Part shown: one piece after another, positions 3,512-34,031 of the stretch
Numbering within the stretch: the first letter of the stretch is position 1
How the letters are laid out: the number at the start of each line of letters is the position of its first letter
Source: Gemmatimonadota bacterium
Lineage (GTDB): Bacteria; Gemmatimonadota; Gemmatimonadetes; Longimicrobiales; RSA9
Length of the DNA: 41,031 nt
NCBI GenBank assembly: GCA_039715185.1
Contig: JBDLIA010000023.1
Coordinates: forward strand, 1-41,031
Direction: 5' to 3'
The notes under the pieces: generated by a model
Database searches by the model: none
What the model saw: only the letters and a program-made list of their open reading frames with translations
What the model was told of the DNA's origin: nothing
Position numbers and translations under genes: made by a program

Positions 3512-4369
3512 CTAGCGGGCGCCCGCGGCCTTCTTTTTCGCGCCCGCGCCTGCCTTGGACCGCGCGGCGCGCTTGGCGGGCTTGCGCTCGGCGTCTTCGT
3601 CGGCCGCGAGGCTCTTCTTGAGGGCGTCCATGAGGTCGATGATCTGCGCCTGCGGCTCCTCCTCCGGAGCGGCGGTGATCTCCTGCCCCTGGATCTTGCC
3701 CTCGATCAGCTCCAGCACCCGCTTGCGCACCTCGTCCGAGTACTTGGTCGGCTCGAACTCCTCGGCCGCGACCTGTTCGATGAGCTGCTTCGCGAGCGTC
3801 AGCTCCTCGTCCTTGACGTCGGCGTCGCCGATGGGGACCTCGGAGAAGTCGCGGACCTCGTCGGCGTAGCGGAGCTGCTCCATGACGATCCCGTCGCGCA
3901 GCGGGCTGAGCAGCACGAGGTACTGCTGGCCGCGGGCCGCGTACCGGCCCAGCGCGGACAGGCCCGTGTCGCGCATGGCGCGGGACAGGAGCCGGTAGGC
4001 GCGATCACCGCCCTTGTCGGGGCCCAGGTAGTAGAACTTGTCGCTGTAAACGCGCTCGACCTGGTCGGCCGGCACGAACTCCTCGATCTGCACCGCGCCG
4101 TCGCTCTGCGCCTCCAGCGCCTTCAGCTCGTCCGGCGTGAAAAGCACGTACTGGTCCTTGGCGAACTCGTAGCCCTTCACCATGTCGTCGCGCGGGACCA
4201 CCGCGCCGTCCTTGGCGCAGACGTACTGCTGCTTGAGCCGCGACCCGCAGTCCTTGTGGATCCAGTTGAACGAGACCTTGGTCGCGGACTCCCCGGTCGA
4301 GTACACCTTCACGGGGACCGACACGAGTCCCCAGGAGACGTTGGCGGTGGCTATGGAACGTGCGCTCAT
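3512..4369 (-). CDS. ku: Ku, DNA-end-binding protein of bacterial NHEJ
   Basis: A 285-residue bacterial Ku homologue. The N-terminus reads MSARSIATANVSWGLVSVPV, followed by FNWIHKDCGSRLKQ, a VYSDKFYYLGP block and RYLVLL-type barrel strands, all typical of the Ku core that forms a ring on double-strand ends. The C-terminus is a Lys/Ala/Arg-rich tail (KPAKRAARSKAGAGAKKK), as in extended bacterial Ku proteins where it aids DNA binding and LigD recruitment. Length is normal. The start is ATG 4367-4369 with GGAAATAGG just upstream. The partner ligase gene ligD lies about 0.9 kb away on the opposite strand, so both core NHEJ components are present. Confidence 0.97.
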   Translation of the reverse strand: MSARSIATANVSWGLVSVPVKVYSTGESATKVSFNWIHKDCGSRLKQQYVCAKDGAVVPRDDMVKGYEFAKDQYVLFTPDELKALEAQSDGAVQIEEFVPADQVERVYSDKFYYLGPDKGGDRAYRLLSRAMRDTGLSALGRYAARGQQYLVLLSPLRDGIVMEQLRYADEVRDFSEVPIGDADVKDEELTLAKQLIEQVAAEEFEPTKYSDEVRKRVLELIEGKIQGQEITAAPEEEPQAQIIDLMDALKKSLAADEDAERKPAKRAARSKAGAGAKKKAAGAR

Positions 4370-4450: not shown

Positions 4451-5251
4451 TCACGGCCGCGGCGCCCGCGCCCACTCGGCGTTGGCCGCCGCGGCCGCGT
4501 CCGCGAGGGCGTCCTGGACGGCGGCATCGATCGGCACGGGGGTCGCCGCCGGGATGACGTCGGGCAGGCCCGTCAGGTCGACCTCGGTGAGCTGGCCGAG
4601 CATTGTCAGCGCCGCCAGATAGCTGCCCAGCGCGCTGGGATGGAACGCGTCGGGCCCGTACAGCGGCAGGCCCGGGTCGCGGTCCCACGCCGCCAGCCAC
4701 GCCGATCCGGCGGGGAAGAGGTAGCCCTCCACGGCGTCCGCGGCCGCCGCGTAGGAGTCCTCCACCCCGGGGAAGTCGAACGAACGCGCCTCCGCCGGCC
4801 ACACCATGTACAGCGCGGGCACCGCACCCGCAGCGCGGATCTCGGAGGCGAATAGGCCGCTGAACTCCAGCAGGGAGGGGCGGCCTTCGGTGGCAGAGGG
4901 TCCCTGCTGCATGATGACCAGGTCCCAGCCGCTTTGTGCGATGAGCGCTCGCGCCGTGCCTTCCGCCCAGTGGTCCTGAAGGCCGAAATTCGGGAACGCC
5001 ACGCTGCGCACGTCCGGGTCCGCGCCCGCGTCGGCCAGCATCCGCTCGAGCATCGACGGCAGGTCGTTGGTGAAGGTCAGGCTGTTGCCCACGAAGAGGA
5101 CCGCGAGCGCGGCCTCGTCCGGGGGGTCGCCGCCGTTCCCGCCCGGGGCGGCCGGCGAGGAACCGCACGCGGCCCACAGAGCGAGCGCGAGGACGGGGAC
5201 GACCGTCATCCGGCCGGCTCCGCGACGGAGGGAGTCAGGAAGCATTCGCAT
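4451..5251 (-). CDS. SGNH/GDSL-type hydrolase lipoprotein
   Basis: A 266-residue exported lipoprotein. Two Arg residues precede a hydrophobic segment ending ALWAAC, with the lipobox Cys at residue 29. The mature part has the SGNH block I as FVGNSLTFTND (nucleophile candidate Ser57) and, near the C-terminus, DAFHPSALG with the Asp and His of block V. The family covers esterases, lipases and carbohydrate deacetylases; the substrate cannot be read from sequence. The start is ATG 5249-5251; ATG codons at 5245 and 5209 are alternatives, but the last would drop the positively charged n-region. The gene precedes ku in the same direction and starts only 29 bases from ligD on the other strand. A direct role of a lipoprotein hydrolase in DNA repair is not expected. 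Confidence 0.85.
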   Translation of the reverse strand: MRMLPDSLRRGAGRMTVVPVLALALWAACGSSPAAPGGNGGDPPDEAALAVLFVGNSLTFTNDLPSMLERMLADAGADPDVRSVAFPNFGLQDHWAEGTARALIAQSGWDLVIMQQGPSATEGRPSLLEFSGLFASEIRAAGAVPALYMVWPAEARSFDFPGVEDSYAAAADAVEGYLFPAGSAWLAAWDRDPGLPLYGPDAFHPSALGSYLAALTMLGQLTEVDLTGLPDVIPAATPVPIDAAVQDALADAAAAANAEWARAPRP

Positions 5252-5273
5252 ACGGTGTCTCGCGGGTCATATT
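5245..5273 (+). promoter_or_regulatory. Candidate promoter giving a leaderless ligD message
   Basis: TTCGCA (5245-5250), a 17-base spacer and CATATT (5268-5273) each match 4 of 6 sigma70 consensus positions. The -10 ends 7 bases before the ligD ATG at 5281, so transcription would begin at or next to the start codon. This fits the absence of a Shine-Dalgarno sequence before that ATG. The elements overlap the first codons of the SGNH gene on the other strand. Weak, prediction only. Confidence 0.3.
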
Positions 5274-5280
5274 GGCCGCC

Positions 5281-7821
5281 ATGGGTGCCAAGAAGAAGAA
5301 CGCGCCAGGCGGCCTGGATGCTTACCACGCCAAGCGCTCGGCCGGCGCGACGTCCGAGCCCGCGGGCAGCGTGGCGACCCCGGGCGGGCGCCGCTTCGTC
5401 GTGCAGAAGCACGCGGCGACGAGCACGCACTTCGACCTCCGGCTCGAGCACGACGGCGTCCTCAAGTCCTGGGCCGTGCCCAAGGGTCCCAGTTACGACA
5501 CCGCGCAGAAGCGTTTGGCCGTACACGTGGAGGATCACCCCGTGGAGTACGTCGAGTTCGAGGGCGTCATCCCCGAGGGCAACTACGGCGCGGGCGCCGT
5601 GATCGTGTGGGACATCGGCCATTACCTGCCGCTCGAGCCGATCGACGAGGGCTTCGAGAAGGGCAAGCTCCTGTTCGAGCTGCGGGGCCACAAGCTGCGC
5701 GGCCGCTGGACCCTCGTGAAGATGAAGAAGACGGAGAAAGAGTGGCTCCTCATCAAGGAGCGGGACGCCCTGGCCCGCCCGGGAGAGCCGGACGACTTCG
5801 TCCGGACCTCGGTCTTCTCCGGCCTCACCGTGGAGGAGCTGGGCGAGGGCGTCGACCCCGCCGGGCCCGCGCTCCGTTTGCTGAAGCGGTGGGAGAAAAA
5901 GGACGAGGGGGTCGTGCGTCGGAGCAGGCTTCGCATCGACGACGCGAAGTTCATGCTGGCGACCAAGCACGAGGAGGCGTTTTCAGACCCCGGGTGGCTG
6001 TTCGAGCTGAAGTACGATGGATATCGCCTGATGTGCGGAAAGGACGGCGAGGAAGTCCGGCTCCTCACCCGTAACGGCAACGACGCCACGGCCACCTTTC
6101 CGGAAGTGGCACGGGCGCTCAGGCGTCTCCCGTTCGAGCACGTCGTCCTGGACGGCGAGGTCGTCGTCCACGACGAGAACGGGCTGCCCAGCTTCCAGCG
6201 GCTGCAGCAGCGCGGGCGCTTGTCCAAGCCGCGCGAGATCATGCGCCGCGCGATAGAGCTGCCCGCGATCCTGTACACGTTCGACGTCCTGGCGCTGGAG
6301 GGCCGCGACGTGCGCCGGGTGCCGCTCGTGGACCGCAAGAAGCTGCTGCGCGAGGTGCTTCCGGAGCTCGGCACGCTGCGGCTTTCGGACCACGTCGCGG
6401 GCCGGGGGGAGCGCTTCTACGCGCAGGTGGACCGCATGCAGCTCGAGGGAATGGTGGCCAAGCGCGCCGACTCGCCCTATCGGGGCGGCCGCTCGTCGGA
6501 CTGGCGGAAGATCCGCGCGGACCGCACCGAGGACCTGGTGGTCGTAGGCTTCACCGAGCCCAAGGGATCACGGGGCGGGCTCGGCGCGCTGCACCTGGGG
6601 GCCTACGTGGGCGAGGAGCTGCGCTACGCCGGCCGAGCGGGGAGCGGCTTCACCGCCAAGCAGCTCGAGGAGACGCGCGCCGAGCTCGAGGAGCTGCGCG
6701 TGGCCAAGCCGTCCTGCACGCGGGCCCCGAAGGGGAAGGAGCATGTCTGGGTGCGCCCGGAGCTAGTGGCAGAGGTTCGCTACCGCGAGTGGACGGAGGA
6801 TGACCTGCTGCGCCACCCGGTGTTCCTGCGCTTCCGGGACGACAAGCCGCCCGAGGAGTGCGTGCACCCCACCGCCGACCGGTCCGCAGACTCCGAGGAG
6901 ATAGCCTTGGTCGAGCACAAAGAGTCGAACCCAGGACCCGAGGTGGCGCTCACCAACCTCGACAAGATCTTCTGGCCCGAGGAGGGCTACACCAAGGGCG
7001 ACCTGATCGAGTACTACCGTGCCGTCGCAGACTGGATGCTCCCCTACATGGCCGAGCGCCCGATCGTGCTTACGCGCTACCCCGACGGCATCGACGGCAA
7101 GTTCTTCTTCCAGAAGGATGCGCCGTCGTGGGCGCCCGAGTGGATCCGCACCGAGACCGTGTGGAGCGAGGACAGCGAGCGCGAGCTGCACTACTTCATC
7201 GGCGGCGATCTGCCCACGCTCCTCTTCCTGGCCAACTCGGCCGCCATCGTCATGCACCTGTGGGCCAGCCGCCTGCCGGACCTGGAGCACCCCGACTGGT
7301 GCATTCTGGACCTCGACCCAAAGGAGGCTCCGTTCACCGACGTGGTGAAGGTCGCCAAGGTCGCCAAGCAGGTTTGCGACGACCTCGAACTGCCGACCTA
7401 CGTGAAGACCAGCGGCTCGTCCGGGCTGCACCTGCTGATCCCGCTCGGCAGGCAGCTCACGCACGACCAGTCCAAGGTGCTCGCCGAGCTGATCGCGAGG
7501 GTCGTAGTGGGCGAGGCCGAGGACATCGCGACGGTGGTGCGCAATCCCAAGAAGAGGGAAGGGAAGGTCTACGTCGACTTCCTGCAGAACGGCTGGGGCA
7601 AGCTGCTCGTATCGCCCTACAGCGTACGGCCGGTGCCCGGCGCGCAGGTCTCTGCGCCGCTGCGCTGGAAGGAGGTGACCGCTAGTCTGACCCTCGACAA
7701 ATTCACGATCAAAAGCGTGCCGCGCCGCGTGCGCGCGCTCAAGGAGGACCCCATGCTGAACGTGCTCAGCGAGAAGCCGGACCTGACGGGGGCGCTCACC
7801 AGGCTGCAGGAGAAGCTGTGA
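5281..7821 (+). CDS. ligD: LigD, multidomain ATP-dependent DNA ligase of NHEJ (PE-LIG-POL)
   Basis: An 846-residue LigD with all three activities. Residues about 35-150 are the 3'-phosphoesterase (HFDLRLEHDG with H50, D52, H57, and VEDHPVEY with H86). Residues about 225-535 are the ATP-dependent ligase, with KYDG and nucleophilic Lys244, the VVLDGEVVV strand and the EGMVAKR motif. From about residue 554 is the primase-like polymerase (ALTNLDKIFWPEEGYTKGDL), with catalytic LDLDP (D677, D679). The order PE-LIG-POL is that of Pseudomonas LigD rather than Mycobacterium. ATG 5281 is preferred; an in-frame TTG lies at 5272. It is divergent from ku and ends in a GTGA overlap with the next gene, so it leads a three-gene run. 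Confidence 0.97.
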   Translation: MGAKKKNAPGGLDAYHAKRSAGATSEPAGSVATPGGRRFVVQKHAATSTHFDLRLEHDGVLKSWAVPKGPSYDTAQKRLAVHVEDHPVEYVEFEGVIPEGNYGAGAVIVWDIGHYLPLEPIDEGFEKGKLLFELRGHKLRGRWTLVKMKKTEKEWLLIKERDALARPGEPDDFVRTSVFSGLTVEELGEGVDPAGPALRLLKRWEKKDEGVVRRSRLRIDDAKFMLATKHEEAFSDPGWLFELKYDGYRLMCGKDGEEVRLLTRNGNDATATFPEVARALRRLPFEHVVLDGEVVVHDENGLPSFQRLQQRGRLSKPREIMRRAIELPAILYTFDVLALEGRDVRRVPLVDRKKLLREVLPELGTLRLSDHVAGRGERFYAQVDRMQLEGMVAKRADSPYRGGRSSDWRKIRADRTEDLVVVGFTEPKGSRGGLGALHLGAYVGEELRYAGRAGSGFTAKQLEETRAELEELRVAKPSCTRAPKGKEHVWVRPELVAEVRYREWTEDDLLRHPVFLRFRDDKPPEECVHPTADRSADSEEIALVEHKESNPGPEVALTNLDKIFWPEEGYTKGDLIEYYRAVADWMLPYMAERPIVLTRYPDGIDGKFFFQKDAPSWAPEWIRTETVWSEDSERELHYFIGGDLPTLLFLANSAAIVMHLWASRLPDLEHPDWCILDLDPKEAPFTDVVKVAKVAKQVCDDLELPTYVKTSGSSGLHLLIPLGRQLTHDQSKVLAELIARVVVGEAEDIATVVRNPKKREGKVYVDFLQNGWGKLLVSPYSVRPVPGAQVSAPLRWKEVTASLTLDKFTIKSVPRRVRALKEDPMLNVLSEKPDLTGALTRLQEKL

Positions 7822-26770: not shown

Positions 26771-26811
26771 GCGGCTTGAGCGCGACGACCCGTTTCGAGT
26801 AGGTTTCCAGC

Positions 26812-27930
26812 ATGCAGACCCGTTACGAGCCGCCTGCTTTCACGGCGGAACCGCTCCTGGACGCGCCCGACGCGCGCTTCGCCGAAGCTCCCGCCGACGG
26901 CGTGCTCCCCGAAGGCTATTTCTCGACCACCAACCTGCCCACCTACGTGCGCGTCGGCGGCGACTGGCGGCTGCCCGAGCGGCCGCGCATGGATTCGGCG
27001 ATCGTGCTGCTGCCCGACGGCACGCTGGAGGTTCGCGAAGGCAGGCTGGTGCGCGCCGGCCAGCCCGTCGCGCTGGGGCTCGCCGAGGACGGCAGCCAAG
27101 GCATACTGGTGCACCCCAACGGGTTCCGAGAGGAAGGGGAGGAGTCCGAGGAGTTTCAGTTCATGACTTCGGAGGTCAGCCGCGAGAAGCCCGTCGATTA
27201 CGAGGCCATGGCTCAGGCGCTCATTCGTGAACGCGCGCACGGCGGCCACGTCGTGTGGGTGCTGGGGCCCGCGGTGCTGCACTCGCGCGGCCGCGACGCC
27301 GTGAGTTGGTTCGTGCACAACGGCTTCGTCGACGCGCTGCTGGGGGGCAACGCCATAGCCGTTCACGACATCGAGCAGGCCATGATGGGGACGACGCTGG
27401 GCATGGACCACAAGGGCCGGCCGGTCAGGGGCGGGCACGCCTTCCACATGCGCGCCATCAACAAGGTCCGCGGCGCGGGATCTCTGGCGGCCGCGGTCGA
27501 GCAGGGTATCCTCACCGACGGCATCATGCACGCGTGCGTGACCCGCGACGTGCCGCTGGTGCTGTGCGGCTCCATTCGCGACGACGGTCCGATTCCCGAA
27601 GTGATCCAGGACGTCGCCGCCGGCCAGGAGGCGATGCGGGAGCAGGCCGTGCGCGCGACCATGGTGGTGATGATCGCGACCGCGCTGCACTCCATCGCGT
27701 TCGGCAACATGCTGCCGTCCTACTACCGCGACGAGGGCGGAGAGCTGCGCGGACTCACCACCATCGCGGTCGACTCGTCCGAATTCCTGGTGAGCAAGCT
27801 CAAGGACCGGGGCACTCTCCAGGCGTTCGGCGTGATCACGAACGCGCAGGATTTCCTGCACGTGCTGCGGGACCACGTGCAGCAAGCCGCGCCCGCGTCG
27901 GTCGAGCGGACCTCGGTGGGGGTCGCGTGA
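26812..27930 (+). CDS. TIGR00300/archaeal-type ornithine cyclodeaminase-like protein
   Basis: A 372-residue protein matching the family shared by the archaeal ornithine cyclodeaminase (TIGR00300) and the C-terminal domain of cyanobacterial ArgZ/AgrE. Key blocks are GNAIAVHDIEQAMMGTTLG, GGHAFHMRAIN, ILTDGIMHACV, LCGSIRDDGPIPEVI and ATALHSIAFGNMLPSYYR. The N-terminal 120 residues are a separate module (LOR/SDH-like) with DGTLEVREG. In this family the reaction is ornithine to proline plus ammonia using NAD. An arginase/agmatinase-type gene lies about 1.2 kb downstream, which fits arginine breakdown. The start is ATG 26812 after a 71-base gap with a hairpin. It ends in a GTGA overlap with the next gene. 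Confidence 0.88.
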   Translation: MQTRYEPPAFTAEPLLDAPDARFAEAPADGVLPEGYFSTTNLPTYVRVGGDWRLPERPRMDSAIVLLPDGTLEVREGRLVRAGQPVALGLAEDGSQGILVHPNGFREEGEESEEFQFMTSEVSREKPVDYEAMAQALIRERAHGGHVVWVLGPAVLHSRGRDAVSWFVHNGFVDALLGGNAIAVHDIEQAMMGTTLGMDHKGRPVRGGHAFHMRAINKVRGAGSLAAAVEQGILTDGIMHACVTRDVPLVLCGSIRDDGPIPEVIQDVAAGQEAMREQAVRATMVVMIATALHSIAFGNMLPSYYRDEGGELRGLTTIAVDSSEFLVSKLKDRGTLQAFGVITNAQDFLHVLRDHVQQAAPASVERTSVGVA

Positions 27931-28436
27931 GCCCCGGCGCCGAGCTGCGAGGCGGCCCGGTGGTAAGGGGCCTGGATCCCGAGGCCGAGGCGCGCGCGGA
28001 GGCCGGGGCGGCATACCGCGCAGTGCTGGATCCGCTGGAGGAGCTCCTGGGAGTGGACGCCGCGGACCGGATCTGGGCTTTTCCCCCGCGTGAAATCCGT
28101 GGCGTGCCCGCCGCGCTCCTGGTGGCGTCCGCCTTCGCGGAACAACCGGGTCGCAGGCGCCTCGTGACCGCGCGACTCGTGGTCGAGCAGCTTCCGGAGG
28201 GCGCGTCTCGGCGCCGAGAACCCTCCAGTCACGTGGAGGTTGTGGAGCAGGGCGAGGTGCCCCAGGACAGGGTGCCGGGGTTGCTCGAAGGCGTCGTGCG
28301 CAGGCTCGGGGAGGACCTGGTGGGCAGAGGACCGCGTGCCTTCGAGATCGGAGGTGCGGCGGACAAGTGGGCGGACATGAGAACGCTCCTCGCGGCGGAG
28401 CCTCTCGTTGCCGAGCCCACCCCGATCGAGCCATAG
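27927..28436 (+). CDS. Hypothetical protein coupled to the TIGR00300 gene
   Basis: A 169-residue protein starting GTG 27927 within the GTGA overlap of the preceding stop. It is rich in Ala, Arg, Glu and Val, with RIWAFPPREIRGVPAALLVAS, then a strand-like RRRLVTARLVVEQL, a Glu/Gly/Val middle part and a final AADKWADMRTLLAAE. No signal peptide, membrane segment or known motif is evident. The coupling suggests a product needed in step with the ornithine enzyme. I do not recognise a family, and the codon use is ordinary for the region. Confidence 0.75.
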   Translation: MSPGAELRGGPVVRGLDPEAEARAEAGAAYRAVLDPLEELLGVDAADRIWAFPPREIRGVPAALLVASAFAEQPGRRRLVTARLVVEQLPEGASRRREPSSHVEVVEQGEVPQDRVPGLLEGVVRRLGEDLVGRGPRAFEIGGAADKWADMRTLLAAEPLVAEPTPIEP

Positions 28437-28484
28437 GGACGCGCGCATGATGGCCGGGCGCGGGACCGACCTGAGGAGGGAACG

Positions 28485-28991
28485 GTGAAGCGAGCTCAAG
28501 CGGCGGCGCCGTCGGCGGCCTTCGTCAACCTCTTCAGGCGCTACCTGAGAGAGCAGGGCCTGCCCGTCACCCAGCAACGGGAGGCGGTCGCCGAGATCGT
28601 GTTTTCCTCCTCCGAACATCTGTCGGTCGAGGAGATCGAGGAGCGTCTCAGGAAAAGCGGTGAGCGCATCGGCAAGGCCACGATCTATCGGACTCTCGAG
28701 ACGATGGTGAAGAGCGGCCTCGTGGCGGAGCACGACTTCGGAGAGGGGTTCAAGCGCTACGAGCACCTGTTCGGCCAGGGTCCCGTGCGGGGCCACCTGG
28801 TATGCACGGAGTGCGGCACGGTGACCGAGGTGGAGGACCCCGAGCTGGAGCGACTCCAGGAGCGCGTGGCCGGCGCGCACGGATTTCGGCCCGTGAAGTA
28901 TCGGATCCAGACGTACGGACTGTGCGCCAAATGCCAGGCGCGCGGCGCCGAGATCAAATGGGAGGGTCTCACCTGCCCGATCGACCTCTGA
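28485..28991 (+). CDS. Fur-family transcriptional regulator with an altered metal-sensing site
   Basis: A 168-residue Fur homologue. The winged helix spans about 10-85, with recognition helix IGKATIYRTLETMVKSGLV. The dimerisation domain carries both structural zinc pairs: C107/C110 (CTEC) and C147/C150 (CAKC). The usual His cluster before the first Cys pair (HHHDH in E. coli Fur) reads QGPVRGH here, so only one His (H104) of that cluster remains; the Glu/His ligands elsewhere (H83, E93/H94) may substitute. The start is GTG 28485 with AGGAGG upstream. It lies between the ornithine-enzyme gene pair and the arginase-family gene, in the same direction, so local regulation is plausible but unproven. 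Confidence 0.9.
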   Translation: MKRAQAAAPSAAFVNLFRRYLREQGLPVTQQREAVAEIVFSSSEHLSVEEIEERLRKSGERIGKATIYRTLETMVKSGLVAEHDFGEGFKRYEHLFGQGPVRGHLVCTECGTVTEVEDPELERLQERVAGAHGFRPVKYRIQTYGLCAKCQARGAEIKWEGLTCPIDL

Positions 28992-29090
28992 ACGGCGGCA
29001 CTCGGCCGGCCACGTTCGTTGCCTAACCGGCGAGACGCCGCGGCGGCCGGCCGCGGCACCGGCTCAGCGGCGCCGGGGGAGGGCTCCACC

Positions 29091-30020
29091 GTGCCCGACC
29101 CGCCCGATTCGCTCCGCGCGCTCCCGTGGGAGCTCCCGCACACGTTCCTGGGCCTGGACGAGGACGCGTCTCGCTTCGCCGACGCCCGCGCGGTGATCCT
29201 GCCCGTGCCCTACGAGTCGACCACGAGCTACGGCGGCGGCGCGAAGGCCGGCCCGCGAGCCATCCTGGACGCGTCGCGCTACCTGGAGCTCTACGATCAG
29301 GAGTTGGACCGCGAACCGTGGACGCCCGGCATCGCCACGCTCCCTCCGCTGGAGCTCAGCCGCGCGGGACCGGAAGCGGCGTGCGCCGAGCTGGCCGCGG
29401 CCTATCGCGCTCTGCTCGAGGAGGCCGACGGCAAGTTCGTCGTCGCGCTCGGCGGCGAGCACTCCATAACCGCCGAGCCGGTGCTGGCCTGGGCAGACAG
29501 GCTCGAGGCGGACGGCCGGCGGCTGAGCGTGCTGCAGTTGGACGCGCACACGGACCTGCGCCCGGCCTACGAGGGGACCGCCTACTCGCACGCCAGCGTG
29601 ATGCACCGGGTGGCGGACAGGGTGGGCATCGTCGCGGTCGGCGTCCGGGCGCTGACGTCCGACGAGAAGCGCTTCGCGGACCAGCGCGACGGGGTGCGGA
29701 TCTTCTTCGCCGATGACATACACGCCGACGATGGGTGGGTCGAGGAAGCCGTGGACGCGCTGGGGCCCGACGTCTACATAACGCTGGACGTGGATGGGTT
29801 CGACCCAGCGCTGATGCCGTCCACGGGCACACCCGAGCCGGGTGGGTTGGGTTGGTATCCCGTGCTCGAGCTGTTGCGGCGGGTGTGCGAGACCCGTCGG
29901 GTGCACGCCGCCGACATCGTCGAGCTGGCCCCGGTTCAGGGCCTCCATGCGCCGGATGTCCTGGCCGCCAAGCTGCTCTACAAGCTGATCGCCTACCGGC
30001 TCTGGATGAGCTCGGACTGA
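29091..30020 (+). CDS. Arginase/agmatinase (ureohydrolase) family protein
   Basis: A 309-residue ureohydrolase that would hydrolyse a guanidino compound (arginine, agmatine or similar) to urea plus an amine. The Mn-ligand motifs are complete: GGEHSI, LQLDAHTDLR and ITLDVDGFDP, plus VPYESTTSYGGGAKAGP at the N-terminus and the SHASVMHRV segment. Sequence type is nearer to SpeB agmatinase than to classical arginase; the substrate cannot be fixed by eye. The start is GTG 29091, preceded by GGGGGAGGG with 7-base spacing; a TTG at 29019 is in frame but weak. Its 3' end overlaps the convergent phosphatase gene by 28 bases. Proximity to the TIGR00300 gene suggests arginine use. Confidence 0.93.
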   Translation: MPDPPDSLRALPWELPHTFLGLDEDASRFADARAVILPVPYESTTSYGGGAKAGPRAILDASRYLELYDQELDREPWTPGIATLPPLELSRAGPEAACAELAAAYRALLEEADGKFVVALGGEHSITAEPVLAWADRLEADGRRLSVLQLDAHTDLRPAYEGTAYSHASVMHRVADRVGIVAVGVRALTSDEKRFADQRDGVRIFFADDIHADDGWVEEAVDALGPDVYITLDVDGFDPALMPSTGTPEPGGLGWYPVLELLRRVCETRRVHAADIVELAPVQGLHAPDVLAAKLLYKLIAYRLWMSSD

Positions 30021-31834
30021 GGCGCGCCCCCCTTCAGCGGGTAGCGCGCGAACACGGGGTGCAGGTCCAGCGGGTCGCGCAGCTCGAGGTCCTCAGGGAC
30101 GGTGCCGTCCGCGCTCAGGAAGAAGGGCCAGAACTGGCGGCCGCCCAGCGCACCGTGCGCGCCCACCTGGTCGTCGAAGCAGACGCAGGTATCGGACTCC
30201 GGGTCGTAGGCGCCGAACAGGACCAGGTCGCCGGAGTTGCTTAGTGCGGCCAGGTGCGCGACGGCCATCCTCGCCTCGTGCCCCGTGCCGTAGTCCTCCA
30301 GCGGGTTCTCGCCGTCCAGCACCACCAGCTCGCCCGCCGGGTCTATCACCGCGCGCCCTCCGCGGCCCTCCACGTGCGCGCCGTCCTGGAAGCGGGTCAC
30401 CACCACGCCGATTCCGGAATGGGCCACCAGGAAGTAGTAGAGCGCCTGTTTGCGCGGATCCTCCTGGATGTGGCGCAACTCCAGCGGCTCGGGCGGGTCG
30501 GTCCAGTACACGTGCGCGAGGGAGGAGGAGTAGGTGACCACCAGCTCCCGGTCGTCGGCCACCCGCGTGGTCTCGGCGACGAGCGGAAAGACGCTGTACT
30601 GGCTCCTGAGCCAACGAATGAGCCGCGGACCGATCGCGCGCGTGATCTCGCTGTGGGACGCGTCGGCCACCGCCTCCGCCTCGCGCAGCAGGAAGTCCAG
30701 CGTCTCCCGCGGCGGAGCGTACACGCCCGAGCCCGCCAGCACCGCCACGCCCTTTTTGGCGGCGGCCTCGATGGTCTGGCCGAGCGTCTCGCCGTAGGTC
30801 ATGCGATACGGCTCCGAAGGCGTCTGCCCGTGGTCGCTGAGCACGTACACATCATAGGGCCGGCCCGGGCTGCGCCGGGTCATGCGCACGATTTCGCGCA
30901 CGCGGCGGTCGAGCGCGCGCACGCTCTTCATGGCGGTACGCGACGACGGGCCGAAGTGGTGCGCGAACTCGTCGTAGACGTTGTACGTGGTGTAGATGGA
31001 GGGGACCCCCACGTAGATGTCCAGCAGCACCGCGAGCGTCTGGAGTTCACGTAGGACCACGCTCGTGCCGATGTGCAGCAGCGGCAGATACCACCAGTAC
31101 CAGGTGGACCTGCCCCTGAGCTGGCTGACGAAGCGATCCCGCTCTTCGCGGATGTACTCGAGCCCGCTGACCAGGACCATGCGCAGCGTGCGGACGGGGT
31201 GGAAGAGCAGCAGGAGCGCGACGCGCGTGCCCCCCAGGTTGGCGAGGAGCGGCTGCGGCTCGCGCGCGGCCATCGTGAACGCGGAACGGGCGGCGCCTCC
31301 GTCGAAGAGGTTGACGTAGCTCGAGCCGCCGTCCAGCACGCCGCTCTCGGGAAGCCGGTCGCGGATGACTTGCATGGCCGCGGGCTTGGAGCCGATGAGC
31401 AGCCTGTCGTCGCCCTTCTCGTAGAACCGGAACCCCGGGATTCCGTCCTTCGTGCCGTAGAAGATGGCCGCCTGGGCGGCGGGCGTGGTGCTCGGCAGGC
31501 CCGCCGCAAAGCGGCGTAGCGCCCAACCCTCCTTCTCGATCAGTCCCTTGATGGTCGGCGCGTAGCCGTTGCGGATCGCCCGCTCCAGGTCATCGTAGGC
31601 GAGTGCGTCCAATTGGATGGCGACGAAGCCGCGCCGGGGCGCTTCGGCTCGCATGCGCCGCTCCCTGGCGAACGGGAGGTACTTGATCCGATAGAGCAGG
31701 CGGAAGAAGCGGTCCCAGAAGCGACGTCTCCAGCCGCGCCGTTCGGGCTGCCCGGGCGGAGGCTTACCGCGGCCCGGCGGCGGGGCCGGGGGGGCGCTCG
31801 GAGTCCTGTCGGCGGCGGGCACGGTGCGGGGCAC
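29993..31834 (-). CDS. Alkaline-phosphatase-superfamily protein (phosphodiesterase type)
   Basis: A 613-residue protein with the type I phosphodiesterase/nucleotide pyrophosphatase fold. Visible features are GFVAIQLDALAYDDLERA (metal Asp), GLPSTTPAAQAAIFYGTKDG (nucleophile Thr/Ser), VYVLSDHGQTPSEPYRMTYG (metal Asp and His) and a late AHSGIGVVV. A Pro-rich N-terminus (residues 1-33) then RRFWDRFFRLLYRIKYLPF may form a membrane-proximal helix; no classical signal peptide is seen. The start is GTG 31832-31834, 9 bases from the receiver gene. The substrate could be a phosphate diester or phosphonate but is not deducible. It overlaps the arginase-family gene tail to tail by 28 bases. Confidence 0.88.
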   Translation of the reverse strand: MPRTVPAADRTPSAPPAPPPGRGKPPPGQPERRGWRRRFWDRFFRLLYRIKYLPFARERRMRAEAPRRGFVAIQLDALAYDDLERAIRNGYAPTIKGLIEKEGWALRRFAAGLPSTTPAAQAAIFYGTKDGIPGFRFYEKGDDRLLIGSKPAAMQVIRDRLPESGVLDGGSSYVNLFDGGAARSAFTMAAREPQPLLANLGGTRVALLLLFHPVRTLRMVLVSGLEYIREERDRFVSQLRGRSTWYWWYLPLLHIGTSVVLRELQTLAVLLDIYVGVPSIYTTYNVYDEFAHHFGPSSRTAMKSVRALDRRVREIVRMTRRSPGRPYDVYVLSDHGQTPSEPYRMTYGETLGQTIEAAAKKGVAVLAGSGVYAPPRETLDFLLREAEAVADASHSEITRAIGPRLIRWLRSQYSVFPLVAETTRVADDRELVVTYSSSLAHVYWTDPPEPLELRHIQEDPRKQALYYFLVAHSGIGVVVTRFQDGAHVEGRGGRAVIDPAGELVVLDGENPLEDYGTGHEARMAVAHLAALSNSGDLVLFGAYDPESDTCVCFDDQVGAHGALGGRQFWPFFLSADGTVPEDLELRDPLDLHPVFARYPLKGGAPQSELIQSR

Positions 31835-31843
31835 CGCCGCGGG

Positions 31844-32239
31844 TCAGGAGGATCCGCCGGCCGGTGCCTCCAGGATGGCCGGGAGCCGGCGAATCAGCTC
31901 GCGCGGCTCGATGGGTTTCGGGAAGAAGTGCGTGCAGCCGGCGTTCCGGCAGGCCATCTCCTCTTCGAATCCGAAGCGGCCCGTAAGCGCCGCGATCGGG
32001 ACGTCCGCGGTTTCGGGCATCCCGCGCAGAACGCGCGCGACCTCGAACCCGGGGCGATCGGGTAGGCCCATGTCCAGCAACACGATCGCGGGCGGATGGT
32101 CCCGCGCCTGGGCGATCGCGTCCGCCGCGGTCCCCGCCTCCCGGACGCTGTAGCCGGCGTCCTGAAGGAGAAGCGAGAAGGCACGGCGCAAGAGGGAGTC
32201 GTCCTCAACGAGGAGGATGTCGGCTGTGCGTCGAGACAT
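31844..32239 (-). CDS. Single-domain response regulator (CheY-like receiver)
   Basis: A 131-residue receiver domain with no output domain. It has the acidic pair D13/D14 (ILLVEDDS), phospho-acceptor D56 (LLDMGLPD), T86 (AALTG) and K108 (FFPKPIEP). All switch residues are present, so phosphorylation by a histidine kinase is expected, but none is nearby. The start is ATG 32237-32239; the frame is open 15 codons further without support. It lies between the ABC exporter gene (22-base gap) and the phosphatase gene (9-base gap), all in one direction, so it may belong to that transcript. Target unknown. Confidence 0.92.
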   Translation of the reverse strand: MSRRTADILLVEDDSLLRRAFSLLLQDAGYSVREAGTAADAIAQARDHPPAIVLLDMGLPDRPGFEVARVLRGMPETADVPIAALTGRFGFEEEMACRNAGCTHFFPKPIEPRELIRRLPAILEAPAGGSS

Positions 32240-32261
32240 TGGACGAAAGCTAGAGGGGGCC

Positions 32262-34031
32262 CTAGGCGGGGACAAGCGCGTCACCGCGCTCCTCGACCTC
32301 CTCCTCCAGCAACTGCCGCCGGAGCAAGCGCGCGTAGAGTCCGTCCCTGGCCAGCAGCTCGGAGTGGGTGCCGCGCTCTACCACGCGTCCACCGTCGAGC
32401 ACGAGGATGATGTCGGCGTCCTTTACGGCCGTGACCCGGTGGCTGACGACCAGGGCGGTCCGGTCGGGGAGGACCCTGGCCAGGCCGTCCAGGATGCGCG
32501 CCTCCGTGTGCGTGTCGACCGCGCTGAGGGCGTCGTCCAGGACGAGGATGGTCGGATCGCGGGCGAGCGCCCGGGCGAGCGCGGCGCGCTGGCGCTGGCC
32601 ACCGGACAGGTTGATGCCTCGCTCCCCCAACATGGTGTCCAGCCCGTCGGGGAATCCGTCGATCGCCTCCTCCAACTGGGACACGCGCACTGCCTGGCGT
32701 ACCGCGACTTCCTCGTCGCGTCCGTCGCCGATGCCGATGCGCAGGTTCTCCCGGATCGTATCCGAGAACATGAAGGACTCCTGCGGCACCACGCCGATGG
32801 CGGCCCGGAGCCGCGCGAGCGGCAGCGCTCGCAGGTCCAGTCCGTCGACCAGTACCGCGCCCTCGGTGGGGTCGTACAGCCGCGCCAGAAGGGCGACGAG
32901 GGTGGATTTGCCCGCCCCCGTGGGCCCGACCAGGGCCGCGGTCTGCCCGGCCTCCAGCTCGAAGGATACGTCGCTCAACACGTCCCGCTCCGTGCCCGGA
33001 TAGCGGAAGCTCACGCCGCGGAATTCGACGCGGCCGCTCACCGCATCCAGCAGCGCCGGCTCGGACGGATCGGCGATGCGCGGGGCGGTGTCCAGAATGG
33101 CGTTGATCCGCGCCATGGAAGCGGCTCCGCGCTGGAACAGGCTCGTTACCCAGCCCAGCGCGATCATGGGCCAGACGAGCATCCCCAGGTAGGAGAAGAA
33201 CGCCACGAAGTCTCCCACCGATATGCCGCCCGCGATCACCAACCGTCCACCCAGCCACAGCACCAGCACCATGCCGCCGCCGGCCAGGAGGGTCATGGCC
33301 GGCCGGAACAAACCGTTGACGCGCGCCAGGGCCATGTTCCTGTGCAGGTACTCGTCGGCGAGCTCGGCGAACTCGGCCTCCTGGGCGGCTTCCCGTCCGT
33401 AGGCTCTCACTATCCGGGCGCCCGTGAGGTTCTCCTGCACCATCGCCGTCAGGGACGAAAACTGCTCCTGGATGGCCTCGTAGCGCCGGTGCAGGAGCGA
33501 GGACATCCGGAAAACGAGCGGGGGCAGCACGACCAGCGGAATCAGGGACAGGCCCGTGAGGCGCGGACTGATCGACAGCATGAATCCGAGAGCGAATACC
33601 GTCCCGGCCACGGTATTCACCATGTACATGACCGCGGGCCCCACCGCCTGTCGAACGTTGGTGGTGTCGTTGGTCGCGCGCGCCATCAGGTCGCCCGTTC
33701 GCTTGCCCCCGTAGAAGGAAGCGTCCAGGCGCATGAAGTGCGCGAACAGGTCGTCGCGCAGGTCCACCTCCACGCGCCGGCTGAGGCCGTTCAGCAACTC
33801 GCGCATGCCGTAGCGGGCCGCTCCTCCCGCCACCGCGACCGCCACGATGGTGCCGGCCAGGAGCAGGATCGTGCCCACCTCTGCCGCGGAGCCGATCGCG
33901 TCGATGGCGAGGCCCACCAGCCTGGGTCCGACCGCCTGAAACGCGTTCGCGAACACCACGAGCACCAGACCCGCGATGAGAGAGCGCCGGTAGGCGCGGA
34001 CGTAGGGCAGTAGCGTGCTGAGAGCCTTCAC
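32262..34031 (-). CDS. ABC exporter half-transporter, MsbA-like
   Basis: A 589-residue fused membrane-ATPase protein. Six membrane helices occupy about 15-310 (for example SLIAGLVLVVFANAFQ and VGDFVAFFSYLGMLVWP). The ATPase has Walker A GPTGAGKST (about 368-376), signature LSGGQRQRAALARAL (about 473), Walker B ILVLDDALSAVDTHTE and a switch His in ALVVSHR. This is the MsbA/LmrA/multidrug-lipid exporter architecture, acting as a homo- or heterodimer; the cargo is not deducible. The start is GTG 34029-34031, about 56 bases past the predicted start of transcription. The C-terminal tail (LLEEEVEERGD) is acidic. It leads the run to the receiver and phosphatase genes. Confidence 0.95.
   Translation of the reverse strand: MKALSTLLPYVRAYRRSLIAGLVLVVFANAFQAVGPRLVGLAIDAIGSAAEVGTILLLAGTIVAVAVAGGAARYGMRELLNGLSRRVEVDLRDDLFAHFMRLDASFYGGKRTGDLMARATNDTTNVRQAVGPAVMYMVNTVAGTVFALGFMLSISPRLTGLSLIPLVVLPPLVFRMSSLLHRRYEAIQEQFSSLTAMVQENLTGARIVRAYGREAAQEAEFAELADEYLHRNMALARVNGLFRPAMTLLAGGGMVLVLWLGGRLVIAGGISVGDFVAFFSYLGMLVWPMIALGWVTSLFQRGAASMARINAILDTAPRIADPSEPALLDAVSGRVEFRGVSFRYPGTERDVLSDVSFELEAGQTAALVGPTGAGKSTLVALLARLYDPTEGAVLVDGLDLRALPLARLRAAIGVVPQESFMFSDTIRENLRIGIGDGRDEEVAVRQAVRVSQLEEAIDGFPDGLDTMLGERGINLSGGQRQRAALARALARDPTILVLDDALSAVDTHTEARILDGLARVLPDRTALVVSHRVTAVKDADIILVLDGGRVVERGTHSELLARDGLYARLLRRQLLEEEVEERGDALVPA

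Follow-up and report, generated by a model that had tools for sequence, protein, structure and literature searches.

A conserved Gemmatimonadota gene set joins a predicted ornithine cyclodeaminase and a predicted agmatinase with a Fur-family protein and an uncharacterised small protein

Four adjacent genes, all on the forward strand, occupy positions 26812-30020 of the window, by which we mean the whole stretch of DNA analysed (41,031 nucleotides). They encode, in this order, a cyclodeaminase, a protein of 169 residues, a Fur-family protein and a ureohydrolase. An earlier note on this DNA had described a cyclodeaminase-like enzyme, a coupled unknown, a Fur-family protein and a ureohydrolase running in one direction, and all four were found in that place. 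The phylum was judged to be Gemmatimonadota from named relatives, as the named records of the closest proteins belong there and include a Longimicrobiaceae bacterium. The features are:

26775-26804, + strand: promoter-like element TTGAGC-N18-TAGGTT, directly 5' of the cyclodeaminase start
26812-27930, + strand: predicted archaeal-type ornithine cyclodeaminase, 372 aa (NF052526, TIGR00300 and PF21570 scores)
27927-28436, + strand: small protein of 169 aa without a Pfam or NCBIfam match; its gene is coupled in translation to that of the cyclodeaminase
28485-28991, + strand: Fur-family protein with altered metal-sensing residues, 168 aa (PF01475, 4.8e-30; residue table)
29091-30020, + strand: predicted agmatinase, 309 aa from GTG 29091, or 333 aa from TTG 29019 (TIGR01230)

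The GTG start of the 169-aa gene overlaps the cyclodeaminase stop by 4 nt. Four families of the phylum carry the genes for the cyclodeaminase, the 169-aa protein and Fur together, frequently with overlaps of 4 nt, and this recurrence puts the arrangement far beyond chance. Gene content, family membership and conserved gene order can be read directly from the genomes: the locus is real and conserved, an unusual combination of known enzyme families with one uncharacterised partner protein. The four genes probably form one transcription unit that starts directly 5' of the cyclodeaminase, and we infer their co-transcription from this layout. No promoter was called upstream of the cyclodeaminase in a scan for the sigma-70 consensus. 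Of 59 regions upstream of cyclodeaminase genes, 12 contain the pattern TTG-N(16-18)-TAGNTT, against a mean of 0.135 and a maximum of 2 in shuffled sequences; the excess is somewhat flattered, as the pattern was selected with the sequences already in view. At the other end, three minus-strand genes converge on the ureohydrolase gene and are kept in many relatives; they encode a phosphodiesterase-like protein (29993-31834), a response regulator (31844-32284) and an ABC exporter (32262-34031). Elsewhere in the window, Ku (3512-4369, - strand) and a three-domain LigD ligase (5272-7821, + strand) lie close together and represent a bacterial end-joining repair pair.

Is the first gene product an ornithine cyclodeaminase? 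Over its full length the protein scores 441.6 bits against NF052526, 'putative NPN-dependent ornithine cyclodeaminase', a margin of 1.6 bits over the cut-off of 440. It stays below the cut-off of TIGR00300 (317.6 versus 410.8 bits), and the N-terminal portion of that profile, before about position 79, is missing from it. Several close relatives lie 3-30 bits under the NF052526 cut-off, and several orthologs fall below both cut-offs. Pfam identifies PF21570 (1.9e-76) and ArgZ-like C-terminal domains. By sequence, the solved relatives are the archaeal protein 3c2q and the C-terminal halves of cyanobacterial AgrE/ArgZ (6lrf, 6lrh, 6juy), with which the window enzyme shares the cyclodeaminase domains and the motifs GNAxAxHDIE, GGHxxH, SIRDDGPxP and KLxDRG. 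Residues invariant in the family are present, among others H185, D186, E188, H209, H212, R256-D258, H293 and K329. Unlike AgrE/ArgZ, the window protein has no fused arginine dihydrolase domain, and it carries a short insert near residues 303-312. On these sequence grounds the protein is assigned as an archaeal-type ornithine cyclodeaminase. Myxococcus and Corallococcus encode a cyclodeaminase 63-64% identical to it without these neighbours (loci L131, L132, L134 and L157), a distribution suggestive of transfer across phyla. The window genome (G000) also encodes, at G000:C66 (locus L100, about 5018-5948), a GSU2086 family protein (NF052581, 369.6 bits versus a cut-off of 250) that is remotely related to the cyclodeaminase Rossmann domain.

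The coupled 169-aa protein matches no family in Pfam or NCBIfam. Homologs follow the cyclodeaminase in 27 further loci and share few invariant residues. Its structure is predicted with confidence (pLDDT 88.3, pTM 0.80), and a fold search of PDB and viral libraries with this model returned nothing at E < 0.001, with TM below 0.4 over the query; weak WGR-domain-like matches were below significance. A new fold is possible for this model, on a comparison that covered PDB and viral libraries. Co-produced with the cyclodeaminase, the small protein would probably assist or regulate that enzyme.

The earlier note had raised the possibility that the fourth gene encodes an arginase, feeding ornithine to the cyclodeaminase. 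The protein belongs to PF00491 (2.3e-59, 29019-30020). TTG 29019 merely gives the longest reading, and GTG 29091 is the more likely start, since orthologs begin near it and a purine-rich stretch lies directly 5'. Against the agmatinase model TIGR01230 the protein scores 205.7 bits (cut-off 174.3), whereas against the arginase model TIGR01229 (rocF) it reaches 78.6 bits, far under the cut-off of 227.6. Orthologs in three relatives (L038, L042, L049) give the same family outcome, with 222-224 bits for TIGR01230. The arginase substrate motif DxHxDxNTPxTSxSGNxHG, present in the arginases of a neighbouring clade (L045, L053, L067), is absent from the window protein, which has DAHTDLRPAYEGTAYSHA instead; where arginases read DAHGDLNTPxTSxSGNVHGMP, the window protein reads DAHTDLRPAYEGTAYSHASVM. 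With agmatinases (TIGR01230; 3pzl) it shares the motifs GGEHS, DAHTD and DVDGFDP, although it is far off the E. coli-type subfamily PRK02190 (106 versus 302 bits). Score, motif and gene context speak against an arginase. Family score, active-site motif and the arginine-decarboxylase neighbours of its orthologs identify the protein, as far as sequence can, as an agmatinase.

These neighbours are of two kinds. SpeA is encoded at the same locus in six relatives (L041, L042, L043, L128, L129, L138); in one of these, L128, the genes for SpeA and agmatinase follow those for the cyclodeaminase, the 169-aa homolog and Fur, and the five run in the same direction. In L038 the decarboxylase of the locus is the pyruvoyl-type enzyme PvlArgDC. 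Cyclodeaminase and PvlArgDC are both present in 17 genomes, and by their coordinates lie within about 2 kb of each other in 15 of these, one of the 15 pairs (G178) spanning a split gene. An arginase-family protein is altogether lacking from several of the relatives in which PvlArgDC is linked. In the window genome, which has a single ureohydrolase and in which PvlArgDC was not found, the arginine decarboxylase lies outside the locus: SpeA is encoded on another contig (G000:C67; 763.7 bits, cut-off 624.1), and the other PF02784 protein is LysA.

True arginases do pair with this cyclodeaminase family elsewhere. In a sister clade (L045, L051, L053, L059, L060, L063, L065, L067 and others) a ureohydrolase gene lies directly upstream of the cyclodeaminase, by 5-18 bp in relatives such as L045, L053 and L051. 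Two of these ureohydrolases were scored against the arginase model, and both are arginases by that measure (299 and 286.9 bits, cut-off 227.6). Like ours, these loci set the same cyclodeaminase family beside a ureohydrolase, but in them a true arginase gene immediately precedes the cyclodeaminase, and both the 169-aa gene and Fur are absent. The opposite order, with an arginase-like gene directly downstream of the cyclodeaminase, occurs in Desulfobacterota relatives (L159, L195, L201, L207; Desulfofustis and Desulfuromonadales-type records). The pairing of arginase and cyclodeaminase envisaged in the earlier note does occur in the sister clade, and with arginase-like genes in Desulfobacterota relatives, but not in the window locus. 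Ornithine as the cyclodeaminase substrate is supported by these gene pairs in two orders and by the similarity to AgrE/ArgZ and 3c2q.

We favour, with a probability of roughly 0.65, a reading in which the locus is an arginine-family and polyamine gene set whose cyclodeaminase and agmatinase serve separate branches. The cyclodeaminase would convert ornithine to proline and ammonia. The agmatinase would convert agmatine to putrescine and urea, the agmatine being derived from arginine by SpeA, whose gene is on another contig here and adjoins the locus in relatives. With an apparent agmatinase in the locus and SpeA outside it, arginine would most likely pass through agmatine to putrescine plus urea without yielding ornithine, and the two enzymes would tap the arginine/ornithine pool by separate branches and not in series. 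The Fur-family protein may regulate these genes locally or serve the whole genome. Points that weigh against the reading are the narrow NF052526 margin together with the TIGR00300 score below cut-off, the location of the decarboxylase gene outside the locus in this genome, and the PvlArgDC-linked relatives that lack an arginase-family protein.

Does the cyclodeaminase also depend on the nickel-pincer nucleotide (NPN)? NCBI labels TIGR00300 as NPN-dependent and NF052526 as putatively so. The window genome encodes larB, larC and larE, while LarA was not found in it, a combination that fits the NCBI label; the cofactor could then be made for the cyclodeaminase. Among 200 genomes of the phylum, larC or larE is present in 76 of the 85 with a cyclodeaminase and in 27 of the 115 without (Fisher 1e-21), and a genus-level table (41/4/18/30) gives p 4e-8; both associations carry no species-tree correction and are inflated by shared ancestry. 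The ten arginase-linked genomes examined all have the cofactor genes. According to a 2024 paper (PMC11796402), larBCE occur without larA in many genomes, whose NPN protein is yet to be identified; a paper joining NPN with ornithine cyclodeaminase was not found in the literature searched.

Several observations pull the other way. Nine of the 85 cyclodeaminase genomes have no larC, no larE and no LarB above cut-off; they comprise one whole genus (G012, G030, G044, G141, G163) together with G016, G073, G080 and G122, and fall into at least four lineages. No loss of cofactor-binding residues was found in their cyclodeaminases, nor any systematic change at conserved residues, which leaves strict NPN dependence unproven. 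NAD(H) is reportedly the cofactor in the AgrE structure. Conversely, larC and larE occur with neither cyclodeaminase nor LarA in 17 genomes (G020, G027, G031, G050, G056, G064, G083, G090, G103, G123, G159, G165, G172, G174, G183, G193, G196), possibly because of another NPN user or assembly gaps. Weighing both sides, we put a cyclodeaminase that needs NPN, and for which this LarA-less genome makes the cofactor, at slightly under even odds.

The Fur-family protein poses a question of its own: does it regulate this operon, or is it the general metal regulator of the organism, its gene merely located here? E. coli Fur served as the yardstick for its metal sites. As in other Fur proteins (e.g. 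4ets, 5fd5), a winged-helix domain and a CxxC...CxxC zinc site are present, and all Fur members of these loci keep the four cysteines of this structural (Cys4) site. The window protein differs from those Fur proteins in having VRGH in place of HHDH, with loss of the S3 site. The regulatory S2 ligands (H33, E81, H88, H90 and E101 in E. coli numbering) are kept in most members; four of the five are kept in the window protein, H88 being arginine there and in L040 and L041. Neither a recurrent palindrome nor a Fur box was seen in 48 cyclodeaminase upstream regions, where dyads reached at most 3 of 48 (shuffles 1-2). The metal sensor proposed in the earlier note stands as a Fur-family protein with its zinc cysteines, but its sensing role is weakened by the V-R-G-H substitution for H-H-D-H and because the search yielded no operator-like palindrome. 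A general role would agree with that negative search, with a genome that encodes just one further, PerR-like member of the Fur family, and with the variation between families of the genes downstream of Fur while Fur itself is retained. On the other hand, Fur adjoins the cyclodeaminase and 169-aa genes in four families, and several Fur members overlap the upstream gene. We regard the general regulator as a tentative reading that falls somewhat short of an even chance. A nickel regulator tied to the NPN cofactor is disfavoured, because Fur still lies beside the cyclodeaminase in most genomes without lar genes.

A combined scenario, in which an NPN cyclodeaminase works with a small new-fold partner beside a Fur-type regulator, and some lineages later lost the NPN pathway and run the intact enzyme on another cofactor, seems doubtful to us.

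Could the cyclodeaminase of this clade act on a different substrate, such as a polyamine-pathway compound? Its constant linkage to arginine decarboxylases and its borderline family scores would agree with this, as would its place in the tree, where a branch (SH-aLRT 75) separates the arginase-linked cyclodeaminases from the window enzyme; outside that group, at a support of only 75, its substrate could have drifted. The conserved motifs, however, are common to 3c2q, AgrE and the arginase-linked enzymes, and we consider another substrate unlikely. Weakest is the model of arginase and cyclodeaminase in series, gated by metal through Fur: it could draw on the arginase pairs of relatives and on the lone ureohydrolase of this genome, but with an arginase score so far below cut-off, no arginase substrate motif and orthologs that adjoin arginine decarboxylases it is very improbable, and the arginine-ornithine-proline module of the earlier note is not closed inside this locus.

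Under the favoured reading of separate branches, the same cyclodeaminase would be connected with arginase in some genomes and with the arginine decarboxylase/agmatinase route in others. The locus also introduces a conserved small protein without a known family, or a fold match in PDB and viral libraries. For the nickel cofactor, the phylum holds both cases, cyclodeaminases with the cofactor genes and cyclodeaminases without. Which protein other than LarA uses NPN is left open in the 2024 paper (PMC11796402), and the cyclodeaminase is a candidate.
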